From the NCBI RefSeq assembly GCF_900103415.1, contig NZ_FMXB01000008.1:1-64000 (forward strand): a stretch of DNA of 64,000 nucleotides. The letters run 5' to 3'. Of the stretch, positions 28,010 to 41,587 are shown in pieces; position 1 is the first letter of the stretch, and each line of letters starts with the position of its first letter. The notes beneath the pieces are model-generated. The model was not told where the DNA came from and searched no databases. It worked only from the letters and a program-made list of their open reading frames with translations. Both the position numbers and the translations under genes were made by a program. Origin of the DNA: Methanobrevibacter millerae (GTDB lineage: Archaea > Methanobacteriota > Methanobacteria > Methanobacteriales > Methanobacteriaceae).

Positions 28010-28876
28010 TTATAAATTCCTGTATTCTCTGATTGAAGTATAGTCGTCGTCTAATTCTCCGTAAGTGGATAGTTTTTCTTTGTTTGCTTCAGCATCTAAG
28101 TATAAACTACCTTTACCGTTAAGACCGATATCTCCAGTATATTTAATGTATTTACCAGGGAAAACAACACCACTGTCTTCAGGGTCTTCTACGATACCTT
28201 CAAGGACAAATCCTTCAAGTAATCTTCCTAAGAATCCGTGAATAACGATAGTACCGTTTTTCATTTGTCCGCCAGGCCAACGGTTAACGTCACCGTCGAT
28301 TTCAATGATACCTTTGGTCATGTGAATACCGGCTAAAATATCACAGTTTCCTTTTACGTGGATTTTACCACCAGTTAAACATTCACCACATTGTTTACCT
28401 GCGTTACCGCCGACAACAATTTCTCCTCCAGTCATACCTCTCCAGTCACCGATGTAGGAAGCACCAGTGAATTCTTTGGTATTTCCGGTAATTTCAAGGT
28501 ATCCTCCGGACATTTCCCTTCCTGCGTGAGCTGCTGCATCACCGTTAACGAGAATGGATCCACCGCTCATTTCAGCACCGACGTGGAGGTCGACACTGCT
28601 GTTACAGATGATTTCACCAGCGCTCATTTTGCAGCCGATGTATTTGACTCTGTTTAAATCCCCGTTGAAAATCATTTTAACGTCAGCAGGGCCTTCAGCT
28701 TCACCTTCAACAGTAATATCAAAGAAGTCAGTAATTGGGAATCTGGAGTTTCCAATAGGCACTTCATATTTAGCGAAGTCAGCTTCGGTCCAGGAATAAA
28801 TTTCATCAGGAATTACTTCATCCATTTCTAATGCGATTGAAGAAGTTTTTATTTGATCAAATGTAATTGTTTTCAA
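28010..28876 (-). CDS. fwdC: Formylmethanofuran dehydrogenase subunit C
   Basis: This protein of about 288 residues consists largely of a right-handed beta helix like the C-terminal domain of glutamate synthase. Repeating GG-x-(I/L)-x-(V/I)-x-G-(N/D) units are seen: [49 protein letters not shown] and [14 protein letters not shown]. In the Fwd complex, subunit C helps hold the formyltransfer and redox halves together. The preferred start is TTG at 28876 behind GGGGTG; a GTG at 28885 is the alternative. It follows fwdA by 14 bases. Confidence 0.93.
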
Positions 28877-28890
28877 ACTAAACACCCCAT

Positions 28891-30597
28891 TTATTTTTCA
28901 ACATCTACTCTGATTGGGTTAGATACGTAGTGGTCGTGTACTGGGTAATTTTCCCATTTAACTGAGTAGTACTGATTGAAGAATGGCATAAGGTTGTCGA
29001 GAACTTTCTGTTCTTGTTTTTCCCATCCTTTTACGTTAACCCAAATGTTTTGACTTTCTTTAACTTGTACGATTTCTTTATCTTTAACTAAGATTTGACC
29101 ATCTTTGATTGTGTAGTCAGCTACAGTGAAACCTTTTTCGATTTCTAAAGCTTGTCTGGATGGGTCAATATCATTAGGATTTATGTCATAAACTGCAATG
29201 TCAGCTCTGCATCCAGGGGTAAGAGAACCTCTGTCTTCAAATCCGTAGATTTTAGCAGCAGCAGCCCTTGTAATGGTTGCAATTTCGTAGAAATCGTATT
29301 CCCTTTCGATACTTGGGAGAGTAGTTCTTTTGTAAATCCATTTGTGGACTTCGTTTTCGCACATGTCTTGTCTTTTCTCGTTACTCATTAACCAGGAAAT
29401 GATTCTAGGATATCTCATGAAAGGACCAGCGTTAGGGTGGTCAGTTGTTAAACAGAGTTTCCATGGGTCGTTTATGAGTAAGAACAATTCAAGACCGATA
29501 CCCCATTGTAATGTGCTGACAGGACTTTTCTTGGAGTAAATACAAGGAATGATACCTGCAGCGGTTTCACATTCAATGTCTTTGTTGGTCCATTTTAAAC
29601 CTGATAATTTGAATAAGTCGTATTCCATAGGAGCATCTGCAGTCATGGTTGTGGTTTCATCAAAGGTAACCTGACCGATATCACAAGTAATGTGGTCATG
29701 TTTGTTGATGTAGTCTGCAACTTCTACAGCACCGGATCCTGCGTCTTTCCAGCTGTTTCCGGTGTAGGAGTGGAACTGCAAGTGAGTTACGTGCATAACC
29801 TGGTTCCTGATGTCAGCTTTGGAACTTTTCTTGATGTCTTTGACTGAGTCTAAGGTTGCAAGAGTGGTTGGGACGTTACCAGGATGTCCTAAATCGTTAG
29901 GGTGAATGTGAATAGAGTGAGGAAGTCCTAACATTTCGTTTGCTTTAGCTAAAGCTCTTACAACTTCCCTTGAGGTTACGTCGAAATATGGTGCTTTGTC
30001 ATCATATCCGTGTACGTTCATACCCCAACCCCATGCTTCACTTCCACATGGGTTTACGATTTTTACACCGTATCCTTTTGAGATTTTTAACCATGAAGCG
30101 ATAAATGCTGCTAAGTCTTCAATGTTGTTGTCTCTTGCGTATTCCATTACAAACCAGTTGTTACCGAATAATGGTAAAGCTGGAATATCGATGTTAGGAA
30201 TAGTTGCAATTTCTTCGTGAGTGTGTTTTGCTTCAAGAGGAGGCATAGCTGCTTCTACAACAGTACCGTAACCCATTCTTGAGTATCTGTAACCGGTTGC
30301 TGGACAACTTGGAATTGAGAAACCTGATTCAGATCTTAACACTTTAGTTTTTTGGGAAACACCCATTCTTGAATCTTCTGGTCTGTATAATCTTCCTACA
30401 ACTAATTTTGGACCTGCTACGTGAGCGTGTGGGTCGACACCTGCTGGCATGACGATTTTATCAGTTACGTCAATAACTTTAGCGTCAGCAGAAACTTCAT
30501 CGACAATAATGCCGTCTTTGAACATTACGTCTTTTTTCTCCCCATTAATTTCGTTAATAGGATCATAAACAATACCGTTTTTAAGTATATATTCCAT
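28891..30597 (-). CDS. fwdA: Formylmethanofuran dehydrogenase subunit A
   Basis: This amidohydrolase-like subunit of about 568 residues condenses formate with methanofuran to make formylmethanofuran, the second half-reaction of CO2 fixation in methanogenesis. The binuclear-metal HxH is in [17 protein letters not shown], further ligands are in [14 protein letters not shown] and [10 protein letters not shown], and the late Asp is in [10 protein letters not shown]. Two adjacent ATGs follow GGTGAT; the second (30597) has better spacing. The gene sits between fwdB and fwdC with gaps of about 10-14 bases. Confidence 0.95.
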
Positions 30598-30607
30598 CAT
30601 ATCACCA

Positions 30608-31993
30608 TTACATTGCTAAATCTAAGTTTGAATTTGGTACATACTTAGGAGCTACATTTGGCTCTTCTCTGAGTTTCATTACTCTTTCTTTCAATTCACG
30701 GACAATCCATTCGTCGTCACGACAGGTTTCTGGTTTGTCGATTGCTTTTTTCATGTAAATAGGAACTCCATCCATACGATAACTGGTACCGGCACATTCT
30801 ACACCGATGAATGATCCTGGCAATACAACGTCAGCAAGTTCGGTGGAAGGTCCCCAGTGAATATCGATTTGAATAACTGGAATATTAGCTAAGTGCTGGT
30901 TTGCTCCGTTAGGGAAGTGTGCACCAGGGTCAGCTGCAATAACCATGAAACAGTCAGGTTCTTTTCTGACCAGTAAATCGATAGTGTTGGTTTCTCCCAT
31001 CATATATCTGGTTGTACCTCTACAGAAGTCAACACCGAATGCGAATCCGGTTTCGAATGCCATGAAAATGTTGAATCCGTTTACGTTAAAGTGTCCCCTC
31101 ATTGGAGTGAGACCCCATTTACTGTATTTGTTCAGGTCCTGAACCATTTTAATAGCAATATCGATGTTTCTTTGTTTGGATAAAGTGTGAGTTAAACCGA
31201 GACCGAAGAAGAGAACACCGAATTCAGCGTTTTTCATTTCTTCAGCTAATTCATAAATGTCTTCTTTAGGAATTCCGGAAATTACATCTTGATATAATTC
31301 TTTTCCTCTTAATACAGCCCTAATTGCGTTGTAGAAACCGTAATCACCGTTTTGTTCGAATCCAATCCATTTGTCAGAACATTTTGCAGTGTCTGAGAAT
31401 TTTGGGTCCATGGTAATAACGGTTCTGTCAAATCTTCCTCTTTGTCTGAAGTATCCACGGCAGAATACAGCGTATCTTGCCATGTGTCTAGGGTGAGAGT
31501 TCATTGCGTTACTTCCGGAGTAAGCAATAACATCTGCTCTGTTTTGTACTTCACCTAAAGTCTGGATAGGGTAACCTGCATTCTGTACAGCTTGCAGGGA
31601 AGGACCGTGACAGATAGTAGCTTGGTTATCCAGTACAGCACCGATATATTCACCTAATGCTAAACCTTCTTTCATACATTCGGTAGAGGTTTCAGACCAT
31701 CCGTAAAATACAGGTCTGATGGAATTAGCAATATATTCAGCAGCTTTGTCTAAAGCAGTATCCCAATCTACTTCCATAAGTTCTCCGTTTTCATCCCTAA
31801 TCATTGGAACAAGTAATCTTTGGTCCATATCTTCCATGATTTTACTTGCACCAAGTCTGCATGCGTGTCTTACAGCAACTACGTGACCGTTTTTAACTAA
31901 GTAGTCTAAATCGTCACAGTTACAACCACAAAATGCACAAGTACAATTTTCAACAATGTAATCGTAATCAGTTATAGGTGGCTCATAAGTCAT
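30608..31993 (-). CDS. fwdB: Formylmethanofuran dehydrogenase subunit B (tungsten/molybdenum catalytic subunit)
   Basis: This protein of about 461 residues has an N-terminal [12 protein letters not shown] motif for one [4Fe-4S] cluster. NQATICHGP follows, where Cys near residue 128 is the probable metal ligand; it is encoded as cysteine, not selenocysteine. The bis-pterin enzyme reduces CO2 to formate. The start ATG at 31993 overlaps the fwdD stop, so translation is coupled. FwdB and FwdD together bind the pterin cofactor; whether the metal is W or Mo cannot be told from sequence alone, but the gene order fits the tungsten (fwd) type. Confidence 0.95.
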
Positions 31994-32552
31994 GATCAAT
32001 CAACTCCTCCCATTTACGTCCTTTGTAAACTGGTAATTCTCCTAATGATTCCATGTTTTCAACAGTGTCATCATCGGTTTCGTCTACGTATTTTTTGTAT
32101 ACCCATCTCATTAAGTCAGCCATGAGTAAAACTTTTCTGTCTGTTTTTTCGACGGTACATCTGATACCTTTGTAGGTTGGGTCAGAACAGCAGTAAGTGT
32201 CGTGACTTACGATAGTGTTAGCCCAAGGTCCTTTACAAATGAATACAGTACCTTCGTGAGGTGCGTCCCTTGATACTGCGCAGTTAACTACGACTTCACC
32301 GAAATCGGTTTTTACCAATACAGTATCCCAGTTGTTTACACCTAATTTTGCCATGTCTCTTGGATCCATGTAACAAGTTCCTGAAGCGTTTTTGTATTCT
32401 TCTTTTAAAGTGGAACCTCTTTTCTTACATGCACCTTGATAGATGTCAGATCCAGTGTTTAACATACATTTGAGGACATCTGTAGTTCCTTCACCAGTGA
32501 TTTTTACGTCTGGTACTACAGGTTTTTCTAAATAAGTATTAGCATAATGCAC
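31983..32552 (-). CDS. fwdD: Formylmethanofuran dehydrogenase subunit D
   Basis: This 189-residue pterin-dinucleotide-binding subunit has the small double-psi-barrel pattern: a core with [32 protein letters not shown] and [20 protein letters not shown]. It is longer than the roughly 130 residues I expect for FwdD because of an acidic C-terminal tail ([20 protein letters not shown]). The start is GTG at 32552 with GGGGGAA upstream. Its last codons overlap fwdB. Confidence 0.93.
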
Positions 32553-32564
32553 TATAATTCCCCC

Positions 32565-32795
32565 TTATTCTAACCATATAGCATTTACTGGGCAAAACAT
32601 TTGACAGGTACCACATAATTCACATTTATCTGGACTGAAAAGTTTAATAAACCCATTTTCTACCATGATAACTACTTCGTCAGTTTTTGCACCGCTACCA
32701 CCGGCGTTTTCCGGACTGATAGCTGCGTTAACAGGACAAGCAATTACGCAAATTCCACATCCTAAACAATTATCTTGATTTACTTTAAGTTCCAT
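32565..32795 (-). CDS. fwdG: Formylmethanofuran dehydrogenase subunit G (ferredoxin-like)
   Basis: This 76-residue protein has two [4Fe-4S] motifs, CLGCGICVIACP and CELCGTCQMFCP, and little else. It passes electrons within the Fwd complex to the catalytic subunit. GGTGATT precedes the ATG. It sits between fwdF and fwdD with gaps of 8 and 12 bases. Confidence 0.94.
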   Translation of the reverse strand: MELKVNQDNCLGCGICVIACPVNAAISPENAGGSGAKTDEVVIMVENGFIKLFSPDKCELCGTCQMFCPVNAIWLE

Positions 32796-32803
32796 CGAAT
32801 CAC

Positions 32804-33901
32804 CTAGTCTTTAATAGCGTTTAAAGCGTCTGTCCAAGTTGCTGAATTTGTTGGAGTGTGATCAATTTCAGTTCTTTTTACAGTTATTGCACCGTTAGGA
32901 CATGCTTTAGCACATGCTTTACATTTTACACAGTACTCGGATAGTGCGACAATATGGTCTAATCTTGAACCCGGACCAGTTGAAACTGGGAATGCTAATG
33001 CATTACATTTACAGATGTCTACACAAGCACCGCATGCTTGACATTTTTCTTGGTCAACTTCAATTGTACCTTCAAATGGTTTTTTGACTTTTGCTGCATC
33101 GGTTGGGCAGACTCCTTCACACCATCCGCAGTAAACACAGAGTTCACTGTCGATGACGGAGTTACCGGTAACAACAGCTTTTGCAGGGTCAATGTCGTAT
33201 TCACCGTAAGAACAGATTCTACATAAAGCCTTGATTGCGTTGGTAGGACATGCTTTTTTACATACTAAACAGTAAACACATTTGCTGGTATCGATTTCAA
33301 TGGATTCCTTACCAGTTTCCTTGTCAACAACGATAGCTTCTGCAGGACATAATTCTTCACAGACACCACAGTAGATACAGTCATCATCGTTTACTTCGAT
33401 TTCACCGGTTACTAAATCAGCACGGTCTGGTAATTTTCTGTCAATTGCGATTGCACCACGTGGACATGCAACTTCACATCTTTTACAATAGACACATTCG
33501 TCATCGTCGATTTCGGAAAATGCATTGTAGTGAGGATATGCTTCGATTTCACGAATTGGTATGCCGTCAATGGTTAATACCAGTGCGTCAACAGGACATA
33601 ATCCGCTACACATACCACATAATACACATTTGTCTTCATTAATACTAATTCTTTGAACATCAAATTCGTCATGAATGTTTTGTGCGATTTTTTCATGACC
33701 ACTGAAGTAGACGTTGTTGGCTACCTGAACACGAGAGTCAACAGCAATCTCATTCAATGTTATAGCACCAACAGGACAGGTGGACTCACAAATTCCACAT
33801 CCAATACAGATGTGATCCTTGAAAGACAAATTCCTTACTTCCTCCGCTGGCCTTGTAATGTCAAAGTTATTGTCATTAACTTCTTTCAAATTTCTTATCA
33901 T
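32804..33901 (-). CDS. fwdF: Formylmethanofuran dehydrogenase subunit F (polyferredoxin)
   Basis: This 365-residue polyferredoxin has eight CxxCxxCxxxC cluster motifs, among them CIGCGICESTCP, CVLCGMCSGLCP, CVYCKRCEVACP, CIYCGVCEELCP, CVYCLVCKKACP, CVYCGWCEGVCP, CQACGACVDICK and CVKCKACAKACP. Such arrays conduct electrons over a long distance and link Fwd to heterodisulfide reductase. The start codon overlaps the end region of the helix-turn-helix ferredoxin gene (stop at 33904). Confidence 0.95.
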   Translation of the reverse strand: MIRNLKEVNDNNFDITRPAEEVRNLSFKDHICIGCGICESTCPVGAITLNEIAVDSRVQVANNVYFSGHEKIAQNIHDEFDVQRISINEDKCVLCGMCSGLCPVDALVLTIDGIPIREIEAYPHYNAFSEIDDDECVYCKRCEVACPRGAIAIDRKLPDRADLVTGEIEVNDDDCIYCGVCEELCPAEAIVVDKETGKESIEIDTSKCVYCLVCKKACPTNAIKALCRICSYGEYDIDPAKAVVTGNSVIDSELCVYCGWCEGVCPTDAAKVKKPFEGTIEVDQEKCQACGACVDICKCNALAFPVSTGPGSRLDHIVALSEYCVKCKACAKACPNGAITVKRTEIDHTPTNSATWTDALNAIKD

Positions 33902-33903
33902 TA

Positions 33904-34353
33904 TTAAATCTCCAAAATTTTAATCGAATCAGTTGGGCACTCATCTTTACATAGCTGACAACCACAACATAGTACGGAGTTTGTATGTGCTGTTAATGAT
34001 TCTAATTTAATAGCCTTCATAGAACACACATTTACACATAAGCCGCAACCAATACAGGAATCTTCAATAATTGCTTCATAGTTTTTATCTCGGCAAATAT
34101 TCACAATTTTTCGACTCTGTTCTGGTTCATCAAATACCGCATTGGTCATCATTAAAAAATCTCTGGGAGTTAATTGAGTGATAGTCCTTGCAACATTAAT
34201 AGAATGCCAGGATAAGTTACTGCCATTCAGATAATGTGATACAGTAGATCTATCAATGCCTAACTCGTCAGCTATTGCCTGGTGACTTTCACCGGCTTCT
34301 TTTAACTTAACCGCAGCCAGATATTTTAAACCAGATGCAATATGCTTCGGCAT
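33904..34353 (-). CDS. Helix-turn-helix/ferredoxin fusion at the head of the fwd operon (FwdH position)
   Basis: This protein of about 149 residues has a helix-turn-helix at about residues 15-40 (LKEAGESHQAIADELGIDRSTVSHYL), a middle helical part, and two [4Fe-4S] motifs, CIGCGLCVNVCSMK and CCGCQLCKDECP. It is the first gene of the fwd operon, where Methanothermobacter has fwdH. The DNA-binding half suggests a regulator that senses redox or iron-sulfur status and controls the operon. Three matching palindromes lie upstream. ATG at 34353 behind GGTGGTT is preferred over ATG at 34365, which would overlap the nearest palindrome. Confidence 0.82.
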   Translation of the reverse strand: MPKHIASGLKYLAAVKLKEAGESHQAIADELGIDRSTVSHYLNGSNLSWHSINVARTITQLTPRDFLMMTNAVFDEPEQSRKIVNICRDKNYEAIIEDSCIGCGLCVNVCSMKAIKLESLTAHTNSVLCCGCQLCKDECPTDSIKILEI

Positions 34354-34363
34354 TTGAACCACC

Positions 34364-34382
34364 ATGTGTAATGATTACACAT
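34364..34382. promoter_or_regulatory. Palindromic operator 1 (fwd side)
   Basis: Nine bases pair perfectly across one central base: the core TGTGTAATGATTACACA spans 34365-34381. It lies just before the fwd operon's first ATG, in the leader or over the transcription start. It shares TGTGTA-N5-TACACA with sites at 34443 and 34689. Confidence 0.75.
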
Positions 34383-34430
34383 ATGTTTTCTTATATAAAT
34401 ATACTTGCCTAATAAAATTAAATGAAAAGC

Positions 34431-34439
34431 CTTATATAC
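34431..34439 (-). promoter_or_regulatory. fwd operon TATA box
   Basis: On the minus strand TATATAAG lies about 80 bases upstream of the fwd start codon, immediately downstream of operator 2. A start near 34405 would be expected. A second TATA-like stretch (34390-34400) is possible and would put operator 1 on the start site. Confidence 0.45.
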
Positions 34440-34442
34440 TAC

Positions 34443-34459
34443 TGTGTAGATACTACACA
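34443..34459. promoter_or_regulatory. Palindromic operator 2 (fwd promoter)
   Basis: TGTGTAGATACTACACA has seven paired bases on each side of ATA. It abuts the minus-strand TATA box of the fwd operon, over the TFB recognition region, 78 bases from operator 1. Confidence 0.75.
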
Positions 34460-34688
34460 AAAAATTTTTTCAAAATTGATTAAAAACAATATTTTTATAC
34501 AAATAGAGTATATCATTAATATTTCAATTAATTAACATCAAATAGCTTGAATTAATTAATTTAATTCCTTTAAAATCTTTTAACATTAAAAAAATGGTGA
34601 TTTTCGCTAAAAATACGTAATACTTAACTCATGAAAAAGTATTACAAAAAGGCTGAAAATTCCAAATAAATTTTTGGTTGACCTAAAA

Positions 34689-34705
34689 CGTGTAGTAACT
34701 ACACA
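34689..34705. promoter_or_regulatory. Palindromic operator 3 (MobB side)
   Basis: CGTGTAGTAACTACACA, with GTGTAGT and ACTACAC pairing perfectly. It lies 61 bases upstream of the plus-strand MobB-like gene and matches operators 1 and 2. The three sites frame the 400-base divergent region. Confidence 0.75.
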
Positions 34706-34765: not shown

Positions 34766-35800
34766 ATGAAAATTGTATCGATTGTAGGGAAGAAAAATAC
34801 AGGAAAGACCTCATTAACTGTAAAAGTTATTGAAGAGCTTACAAATAGAGGGTATAAAGTCGCTTCAATAAAACATTCCCATCACACAATGGAGATGGAC
34901 AGAGAAAATACGGACACCTGGAAGCATAAGGAAGCCGGATCACAAGTGGTTGTCGGCGTCGGGTCAACAACGTTTTTTAACATGAGACAGGACATGGATT
35001 TAAACAGACTGCTTTATTTAATCAAGCATATGGACAACGTTGATTTTGTTGTCATTGAAGGCTTTAAGACATACAACTACCCGAAAATTGCCACTTCAGA
35101 CAATGTAGTTGACGAATACACCATAAAGCAGGTTGATTCATTCACGATTACTCCCGAAGGCGTAAGCGAACTGGTTGATTTGATAGAGGAAAGGGGTCAC
35201 GATATCGTTGACACCCTCTTTGCAAACAACTGCGGATACAACGACGGAGAAATCATTGCAAAAGAAATCCGTGAAGGCAACCTTAAAACCGATGACTTGG
35301 ATGACGTTTCAAGCTATTTATCCATTGACAATAATATTATAGGTCTGAACAGATTCGTAAGCGATTACTTCAGGCAGGTCGTCCTTGGAATAATCAGCAC
35401 CCTTAACATTAAAGATTACGGCGTTGAGGATATCTCAAAAATCGAGCTTCTGATTAACAATGAAGATAATCCCTCTGAAAATGACTTGAATGGTGAAATA
35501 TTCATCAACAAAAAGCCTTTAGACATTAACCGCTTCGTTAAAGACATAATCTCAAGTTCAGTTCTGGGAATCGTTAAATCACTCAAGACTGAAGGTGAAG
35601 TAAAAAAGATATCCGTAGAGATTACGGGTATTGAAAACTGTTCATTATACGATGCAGCTATCAGCCTTAAGGTAAACGATAAGGATTTGGCAATAAACAA
35701 ATTCACATCAGGCATTCTAAAGGAAACGATCTTTTCAATGGTAAACACCCTAAAAATTGATGGAAAGATTAATGAAATCAAAATAGACGTGGAAGTATAA
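34766..35800 (+). CDS. mobB: MobB-like molybdopterin guanine dinucleotide protein with a triplicated C-terminal unit
   Basis: Residues 1-150 are a MobB P-loop domain: [23 protein letters not shown] (Walker A), [24 protein letters not shown] and [14 protein letters not shown]. MobB helps attach GMP to molybdopterin. The C-terminal half has three related units at about 185-230, 246-288 and 299-343, each with (L/I)-x-(I/L)-N-(R/K)-F-x-x, a hydrophobic helix and a closing beta strand ([27 protein letters not shown]). I do not know the function of these. The gene is divergent from fwd and next to moaA, so cofactor supply and enzyme may be co-regulated. Confidence 0.8.
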
Positions 35801-35802
35801 TC

Positions 35803-36735
35803 ATGACGCAAAAAGTAGTAAAGGACAAGTTCGACAGGCCGATACTTTCACTCAGGATTACCCTGACCAACAGGTGCAACGTTAACTGCATCTACTGCCA
35901 TCATGACGGAATGAGATCCTCTAAAAATGAAATGACCCCTGACGAGATATACAGAATCTGTAAAGTGGCCAAAGAGATTGGCGTTAGAAAAATAAGGCTT
36001 TCCGGTGGAGAACCCCTAATCAGAAAAGACATTGTCGAAATCGTATCCAAAATAGCTAGCCTTGACTTCAAGGACATTTCAATGACATCAAACGGTATTT
36101 TACTTGAAAAATACGCCAAGGATTTAAAAGAAGCCGGCCTTGACAGAGTTAATGTCAGCCTGGATACGCTTAACCCTAAAACTTATGAATTCATAACCAA
36201 AAAGGATTACCTTAAAAAGGCCAAGGAAGGAATCCTTAAAAGCGTTGAAGTCGGGCTTTACCCCGTTAAAATCAACATGGTCATCATGAAGGACATCAAC
36301 GAACATGAGATAAAGGAAATGTTCGAGTTCTGCAAAGACAACAACATGGTTCTGCAGCTGATTGAGCTTATCGAAAGCGAAAACTGTGATGACGATAAAT
36401 TCTCAGCGGAATACCACTACAAGCTTGACATGGTCGAAGATAGGCTGGCTGATATAGCTGATGACGTAAGAGAACGTGAATTTATGCAGGGCCGTAAGAA
36501 ATATTACATTAACGGTGGAGAAATCGAGGTAGTCAAGCCTGTTGATAACTCTAAATTCTGCGCAAATTGTACCAGATTGAGGGTAACTCCTGACGGTAAA
36601 ATCAAGCCATGTCTTTTAAGAAACGATAATCTTGTAGACATAATCACCGAAATCAGAAATGATGCAAGTGATGAAAAATTAGAAGAGATCTTTTTAAAAG
36701 GTATTAATAAACGCGAACCGTTTAATATCGATTAA
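35803..36735 (+). CDS. moaA: GTP 3',8-cyclase MoaA
   Basis: This 310-residue radical SAM enzyme begins molybdopterin synthesis from GTP. It has the [12 protein letters not shown] cluster motif, [14 protein letters not shown] and the C-terminal second-cluster motif [21 protein letters not shown]. The family's terminal GG dipeptide is absent; the protein ends KREPFNID. It begins 2 bases after the MobB-like stop, so the two are an operon. T runs follow the stop codon. Confidence 0.93.
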
Positions 36736-41130: not shown

Positions 41131-41587
41131 AATCTCAACCTCTTTTTTTATCCCCTTTATAAATTAATTTATAGAACATAATACAGATGAATCTGCCAAA
41201 TTGTATAATCCATTGTATTATGATTATTATATTTAGTATTCATATAATAAAAAGGCTTTGTTATTAGAATCAAAAAGAAAATTTTAAATACTTTAAAGTG
41301 AATAAATAAAAAGTTAATGATAAATCATGATAGAAATTTATTCACATCGTTACTTTTTTGTACATTTTAGGCATACATAAAATAAAATTGTTCGAATACT
41401 ATCAAACAAATTTTAAACAAATAAAAAAAGAAAATAAAAGATTAATATTAATTAAATTAAATAAATAAAGCATAATATCCAAAATTTTTTTAAGCATTTC
41501 TTCGACATGTGACAAAACGTAATATTGACCCATAACCGCCAAGATACATTATGAATTTTGAAGACAATTTTTGAATAATCAGTTCAA
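41131..41587. promoter_or_regulatory. fdhC upstream region with an inverted repeat
   Basis: A 457-base AT-rich region with no gene. CATAATACA (41177-41185) and TGTATTATG (41214-41222) form a perfect 9 bp inverted repeat 28 bases apart in the fdh leader or promoter, with another TTGTATAAT between them. TATA-like stretches occur further upstream on the minus strand. TTGTTCG...CAAACAA at 41389-41409 has the spacing of an MsvR box but is degenerate. Confidence 0.4.

Follow-up and report, generated by a model that had tools for sequence, protein, structure and literature searches.

Palindromes kept upstream of fwdH across the Methanobacteriales suggest autoregulation of the formylmethanofuran dehydrogenase operon by a ferredoxin-bearing helix-turn-helix protein

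The conversion of CO2 to methane begins with formylmethanofuran dehydrogenase, and how rumen and gut methanogens control the synthesis of this enzyme is, to our knowledge, poorly understood. The stretch of DNA analyzed here (the window, that is, the first 64,000 nucleotides of contig NZ_FMXB01000008.1 of Methanobrevibacter millerae) raises this question in concrete form: three matching palindromes lie between the fwd operon and the divergently oriented mobB and moaA genes, and the first fwd gene encodes a helix-turn-helix (HTH) joined to a ferredoxin domain. A sequence-only reading had proposed that this protein senses redox state or the supply of iron-sulfur clusters or metal, binds the three sites and controls both the dehydrogenase and the synthesis of its pterin cofactor. 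What, then, acts on these palindromes, and on behalf of which genes?

The fwd operon occupies the minus strand, with fwdH (33904..34353) as its first gene, followed directly by the polyferredoxin gene fwdF (32804..33901; NCBIfam FwdF above cut-off) and by fwdG, fwdD, fwdB, fwdA and fwdC (28010..32795), the open reading frames of which were named by eye and after a published gene order (PMC3087415). That source gives the order as fwdHFGDACB, tabulates FwdH as a part of the enzyme and calls the tungsten enzyme constitutive. On the plus strand lie mobB (34766..35800; Pfam MobB and TIGR00176) and moaA, coding for GTP 3',8-cyclase (35803..36735; NCBIfam TIGR02668 and NF001199). A pattern search found again all three copies of TGTGTA-N5-TACACA that had been read at 34365, 34443 and 34689. 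The proximal core palindrome (34365..34381; TGTGTAATGATTACACA, a 19-bp palindrome with its flanks included) starts 28 bp before the fwdH ATG, the distal one (34443..34459; TGTGTAGATACTACACA) starts 106 bp before it, beside a TATA box, and palindrome 3 (34689..34705; CGTGTAGTAACTACACA, one mismatch) lies on the mobB side and is kept near -352 within the genus. The fwdH start is very probably 34353 (MPKH...) and not 34365, because many orthologs align only from MPKH and GGTGGT (34358-34363) precedes it, which would place the proximal palindrome wholly upstream of the gene. Across the 2.72-Mb assembly, a genome-wide search, as proposed with the earlier reading, returned only four sites when up to one mismatch was allowed, three of them within 341 bp at this locus and the remaining one inside a long open frame (L111). 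A Markov model of first order, based on the intergenic region, predicts 0.002 such sites per 400 bp, and none of 20,000 simulated 400-bp sequences held three or more. When two mismatches are allowed there is no excess genome-wide (46 vs 63 per strand for the reversed control), and with three there is none within the window (23 seen vs 25.8 expected).

The product of the first fwd gene is a protein of 149 aa with an N-terminal HTH and a 2[4Fe-4S] ferredoxin domain, as the earlier reading had it: the HTH matches HTH_23 (E 1.1e-5; 25.5 bits against a cut-off of 24.6), the ferredoxin domain matches Fer4_21 (E 5.5e-12; 46.1 bits), and both CxxCxxCxxxC motifs are present. The gene can be identified as fwdH from its place immediately before fwdF, seen in 93 of 95 loci, in which the match to fwdF begins 446-459 bp after the fwdH start; at L056 and L057 the best hit is an upstream paralogue, and the downstream gene there stands outside this count. 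A single ortholog (E <= 1e-12) was found in each of 25 of the 30 genomes drawn from the order, the other five all belonging to one genus, g3. Here and below, we take g3 (and genome G028) to be Methanosphaera, family f2 to be Methanothermobacter, G145 to be Methanothermus and G025 to be M. ruminantium. In 12 genomes of families f2 and f3, the orthologs are 52-56% identical over residues 5-153 (E 2e-51 to 8e-56), and 93 distinct FwdH proteins occur among the 95 loci. The phylum-level search covered 151 genomes of 20 genera, with 20 genomes without a match standing outside the list of results, and a named search yielded Methanobrevibacter together with a single weak match in Nealsonbacteria. Conservation of the HTH is strong, with 22 of 96 columns invariant in 14 diverse rows, and R35, S36, T37, S39, H40, Y41, L42, N43 and G44 are invariant in the same comparison. 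The PDB chains among the matches listed (60 of 111), including those of the Fwd complexes 5t5i, 9sw6 and 7bkb, match only the ferredoxin half. The full-length fold model was poor (pLDDT 46.7) and was left out of structure searches, and the model of the HTH part (pLDDT 74.7) gave weak structure matches only. With it, Foldseek returned no match at E <= 0.001 (best E 0.21), and the best VIA match was the DNA-binding domain of DeoR (Z 4.9; 1.1 A over 43 residues), a Z below 8 being one that may reflect merely a common arrangement. In an hmmsearch with the HTH, the designed protein 8tac came first (7e-5), other matches were at 0.001 and weaker, and the group of the controller protein C.Esp1396I stood at 0.008. 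By its sequence, FwdH bears the name of an enzyme subunit yet has the build of a gene regulator.

If FwdH acts on the palindromes, these should accompany its gene. The comparison was made on 95 oriented loci, the window's included, with at most one mismatch to TGTGT-N7-ACACA as the criterion; a second fwdH copy in G104 and the gene of G079, where the contig ends 14 bases before it, stand outside this set. A distal palindrome starts 103-110 bp before the fwdH start codon in 80 loci and a proximal one 25-32 bp before it in 62; both are present in 50 and at least one in 92. The core palindromes thus recur at the same positions in other fwd promoters of the Methanobacteriales, and loci that keep the HTH-ferredoxin gene without them, the observation that the earlier reading had named as telling against itself, amount to three of 95. 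Among 37 background windows of equal width, 33 held no hit and the other four held 1, 2, 1 and 1. The spacing between the core sites is confined to 77-80 bp in the 91 loci scored (78 bp in 61, 77 in 18, 79 in 10 and 80 in two). The sites are kept down to about 50% FwdH identity (genomes at 50-58%), in promoters that otherwise share little. The distal threshold is missed in 15 loci and the proximal one in 33, including all 14 loci of genus g10, which keep only the right half of the proximal site. G145 has no site within one mismatch, and a degenerate one can be seen by eye at the distal position. A D-to-N change before the recognition helix of FwdH and an A-to-G change in the half-site go together, albeit loosely; we rejected this covariation as evidence, as it is suggestive only and confounded by phylogeny.

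The position of the distal site relative to the promoter is equally regular. The probable TATA box of the fwd operon (TATATAA; 34432..34438, minus strand) lies 4 bp from the distal palindrome, and a second TATA-like stretch (34391..34403, minus strand), as read from the sequence, may be an alternative fwd promoter. In 86 of the 95 loci, a TAWAWA stretch comes no more than 20 bp downstream of the distal palindrome, and in 64 the gap is 4 bp; of 1840 random 20-mers, 310 contain one. The TATA-like stretch is followed by an element TTTCTATTT in 42 of the 95 when up to one mismatch is allowed. The usual archaeal spacing from TATA box to start would put transcription initiation near -57 and, on the strength of that spacing, the proximal palindrome probably lies in the fwd leader.

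Genus g3 offers a natural loss of the gene. An fwdH ortholog is absent from all 20 g3 genomes (best E 8e-10 or weaker), in which the best matches to the query, where listed, are ferredoxin-type, and fwdF is absent at E <= 1e-40 from the nine tested, fwdA being kept in all five tested. The four g3 fwd stretches that were read (10 kb each; L170-L173) carry fwdD, fwdB and fwdA, plus fwdC where the stretch reaches it (all named by eye), and none holds a palindrome with at most one mismatch. Over the 20 g3 genomes, the looser exact pattern TGTGTRNNKNNYACACA gives four matches vs 10 for the reversed control. M. stadtmanae is described in a review as devoid of molybdopterin biosynthesis genes (PMC10658910). 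Where fwdH is present, the sites gather around it. The stricter pattern TGTGTANNKNNTACACA, searched for in 49 genomes of the genus to which the window belongs, yields 79 exact sites vs 11 for the reversed control, with matches in 40 of the 49. Judged by contig and position, 66 of these sites are no more than about 2.5 kb away from fwdH, two lie on a contig of G117, in which no fwdH was found, and 11 lie on other contigs. Such a concentration at the fwdH locus is what would be expected for a local autoregulator. The eight f2 genomes hold 21 sites vs none in the control, seven of which are one conserved sequence at another place.

Some sites away from fwdH deserve a record of their own. Eight of the 11 sites of the genus on other contigs were opened. 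At L137:1784, L138:1768, L139:1685 and L140:1686, a TGTGTAA-N5-type palindrome stands beside a gene resembling those for VWA-domain proteins, accompanied in three of the four by a small winged-HTH-like gene (both by eye), and these palindromes are probably the site of another regulator. The sites of L143 and L144 adjoin, on different sides, a gene named by eye as symporter-like, and those of L141 and L142 fall inside long open frames. In f2, TGTGTGTCTCATACACA (L149:1767, L151:1773) is kept in seven of eight genomes, with methyltransferase-like genes alongside in the two opened.

Sequence comparison thus establishes that the sites exist, that they are conserved along with the gene throughout the order, and that the fwd regions of genomes without the gene do not have them. 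FwdH is the best candidate binder, because it is local, bears an HTH, is present along with the core sites and is missing where the fwd region lacks them, though this is association and not proof. The explanation that survives best beside it assigns the palindromes, as operators, to some other transcription factor encoded at an unlinked locus, and makes of FwdH an electron carrier or assembly factor of the Fwd complex that simply travels with the operon. FwdH does have canonical ferredoxin motifs and its gene adjoins that of a polyferredoxin, fwdF and fwdH are missing together in the g3 genomes tested, and a few matching sites persist in two genomes of other genera (G008 and G013; 89% and 91% complete) without hits for fwdH, fwdF or fwdA, where TGTGTRNNKNNYACACA gives four matches at three places and one match at one place, respectively, against none for the reversed control (L211 and L213-L215 for G008; L210 for G013). 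Against this stand the strongly kept HTH, the restriction of the PDB matches listed, Fwd complexes included, to the ferredoxin half, and the clustering of sites at the fwdH locus, so that we regard an unlinked factor as rather unlikely.

Taken on these associations, it is highly likely that FwdH binds the palindromes, and a fuller reading, in which they are FwdH operators through which a FwdH dimer autoregulates the fwd operon, most likely as a repressor, appears probable. One dimer would sit at the distal site, directly against the TATA box and over the usual location of the TFB-recognition element, and a second would sit some 78 bp downstream at the proximal site, probably in the leader. Occupancy would lower transcription of the operon that encodes FwdH, in a negative feedback; we lean towards repression over activation. 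The two clusters would most likely report the supply of clusters or of low-potential electrons and change DNA binding, such that cluster occupancy or reduction tunes repression. We hold a cluster-dependent signal to be somewhat more likely than not, tempered by the fact that labile sensor clusters do not typically have canonical ferredoxin motifs, which counts against a sensor. The description of the tungsten enzyme as constitutive (PMC3087415) likewise speaks against the reading.

A less likely account of the proximal palindrome makes it an mRNA leader hairpin by the ribosome-binding site, or makes its right half an initiation signal. The site does lie in the probable leader, just before GGTG. 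In 79 of 95 loci its right half, ACACATGGTG, has no mismatch, and this holds also for loci that have lost the left arm; part of the proximal conservation may therefore serve translation. The palindrome nonetheless recurs upstream of the TATA box and upstream of mobB, where co-transcription is not expected. With two site classes outside the probable transcript, an RNA hairpin was rejected as a general explanation, and we consider this account improbable even for the proximal site.

The preferred reading, autoregulation by FwdH, thus concerns the two core sites above all. On the sequence evidence, the three palindromes are not equivalent: two are order-wide elements of the fwdH promoter, and the third faces mobB and belongs to some lineages only. 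Hence, of the link drawn earlier between protein, palindromes and fwd, the part that concerns the core sites is supported over the 95 loci, and the part that concerns the third site narrows to those lineages. Within the window's genus, a palindrome near -352 from fwdH stands in front of mobB-moaA, and in one g17 locus a palindrome faces moeA. Four loci (L145, L146, L148 and L152) carry two separate palindromes, one near -353 of fwdH and another at the mobB promoter, and the -352 element may therefore serve both fwdH and mobB; in these loci, ferredoxin-like and FwdF-like polyferredoxin genes (337-343 aa) lie between mobB and fwdH (L146:2314-3531, and likewise in the other three). The intergenic stretches between mobB and fdh of G125 and G120, genomes of other families, hold no palindrome. 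The supposed coupling of fwd to pterin synthesis accordingly retains a mobB-facing site in the genus and fails to extend to these two mobB promoters, so control of pterin synthesis, if there is any, would be confined to certain lineages. In the window's lineage, FwdH would also control mobB-moaA.

Two further elements accompany palindrome 3. The first, on which the earlier reading did not remark, is an iron-box-like palindrome, TTTTGGTTGACCTAAA (34672..34687), which has one mismatch to TTTAGGNNNNCCTAAA, lies 1 bp from palindrome 3 and is kept in the genus. The 14-bp consensus of IdeR is given as TTAGGNNNNCCTAA (PMC8464063), to which the window copy has one mismatch. Allowing one mismatch, this 14-mer accompanies 29 of the 40 palindromes that the genus has at -345..-370, at a distance of 1-5 bp and in every case towards fwdH; 16 of the copies are exact. 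It lies beside none of 143 core palindromes. In the interval -345..-320, the iron box occurs in 29 of 41 loci of the genus, one of 11 g10 loci and two of six g4 loci, and in none of the other genera counted; eight other 25-bp windows gave it in none of the 41 loci each. In the same genome, the 14-mer occurs three times upstream of a gene named by eye as feoB (L204), and a one-mismatch copy (C2:132807) lies about 60 bp before a DtxR-family gene. Further exact copies adjoin genes without an obvious iron link, and over the whole genome the 16-mer shows no excess when up to one mismatch is allowed (31 vs 49 per strand). The IdeR/DtxR-type box beside palindrome 3 is independent ground for suggesting an iron link. 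Elsewhere in the window, a one-mismatch iron box (41366-41381) lies about 236 bp upstream of an open reading frame that resembles a formate transporter by eye (start 41130) and precedes fdhA-like and FrhB/FdhB-family genes.

The second element is an inverted repeat, GTAATAC-N15-GTATTAC (34617..34645), also kept in the genus. With up to two mismatches and a spacing of 15, it is found in 27 of 41 congeneric loci and in one of 49 loci outside the genus; the remaining spacings between 11 and 19 give 0 to 6 of the 41, and its exact form occurs only at fwd loci in 1.2 Mb of loci, including 400 kb of the same genome. NikR sites resemble it in geometry. It is tempting, although doubtful, to picture FwdH as a ferredoxin that has become a transcription factor, one that would sense how the CO2-reducing enzyme is supplied with electrons or clusters and would set its synthesis, and to see in the fwdH-mobB region of Methanobrevibacter a metal-integrating hub. 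There, FwdH would act jointly with a DtxR-type iron regulator and a third factor at the inverted repeat, so as to match the tungsten or molybdenum enzyme, along with its pterin cofactor, to the supply of iron and perhaps of nickel.

It is very unlikely that a regulator already known (Tfx, the DtxR-family protein or NrpR) is responsible for the TGTGTA sites. An NrpR-type gene does lie within the window and a DtxR-family gene elsewhere in the genome; the NrpR operator, GGAA-N6-TTCC, does not fit the sites, and the DtxR-type box is a different palindrome. For Tfx, the precedent is binding to the promoter region of the related fmd operon in Methanothermobacter (PMC3087415). That the sites do not belong to Tfx, as the sequence-only reading had held, is borne out: its TFX_C domain is absent from the genome at hand and from 10 of 12 other genomes tested (it is present in G125 and G120), and FwdH has no TFX_C match at E <= 0.001. 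Tfx, DtxR and NrpR were consequently rejected as binders of the TGTGTA sites, on the absence of TFX_C and the difference of the other operators. Chance, for which only the lack of excess at two or three mismatches could be adduced, is practically negligible in view of the rarity of the sites in the genome, the Markov simulations, and the position-specific conservation and fixed spacing in the 95-locus set.

In the open-licence PMC literature, none of the matches listed describes a TGTGTA operator, presents FwdH as a regulator or gives it a role in DNA binding. Iron-sulfur regulators and autoregulators are well known as such; the novelty, in our judgement, would lie in an HTH joined to a full ferredoxin that guards the first step of methanogenesis. 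If the reading is correct, a dedicated, order-wide regulator has been hidden under the name of a subunit, with defined operators that make it directly testable, and a full 2[4Fe-4S] ferredoxin joined to an HTH is to be added to the designs of regulators.

Several known systems share features with the one proposed here. Lambda-repressor/XRE-like and tri-helical HTH repressors, such as C.Esp1396I and DeoR, may resemble FwdH in the HTH, with the profile matches given above and a weak fold match, and we know of no ferredoxin domain in any of them. For the iron-dependent repressors IdeR/DtxR, the 14-bp consensus recurs beside palindrome 3 and upstream of the gene named by eye as feoB; the regulator is another one, and its palindrome is not that of the TGTGTA sites. 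In Methanosaeta harundinacea, FilR1 is likewise a regulator reported to bind an fwd promoter, yet it is a two-component response regulator from another kind of methanogen, and the account of it in PMC3991700, as far as the relevant passages go, reports no ferredoxin domain. Tfx of Methanothermobacter, which binds downstream of the fmdECB promoter (PMC3087415), is, as FwdH is proposed to be, a DNA-binding protein tied to a formylmethanofuran dehydrogenase operon, but ends in the C-terminal domain TFX_C. The closest counterpart is the FwdH of the fwdHFGDACB operon of Methanothermobacter, which is listed as a part of the enzyme (PMC3087415) and, like the gene product studied here, is encoded first in the operon, before fwdF; the FwdH orthologs of the eight f2 genomes, presumably of that genus, are 55-56% identical to the FwdH of the window and have both upstream palindromes with at most one mismatch.
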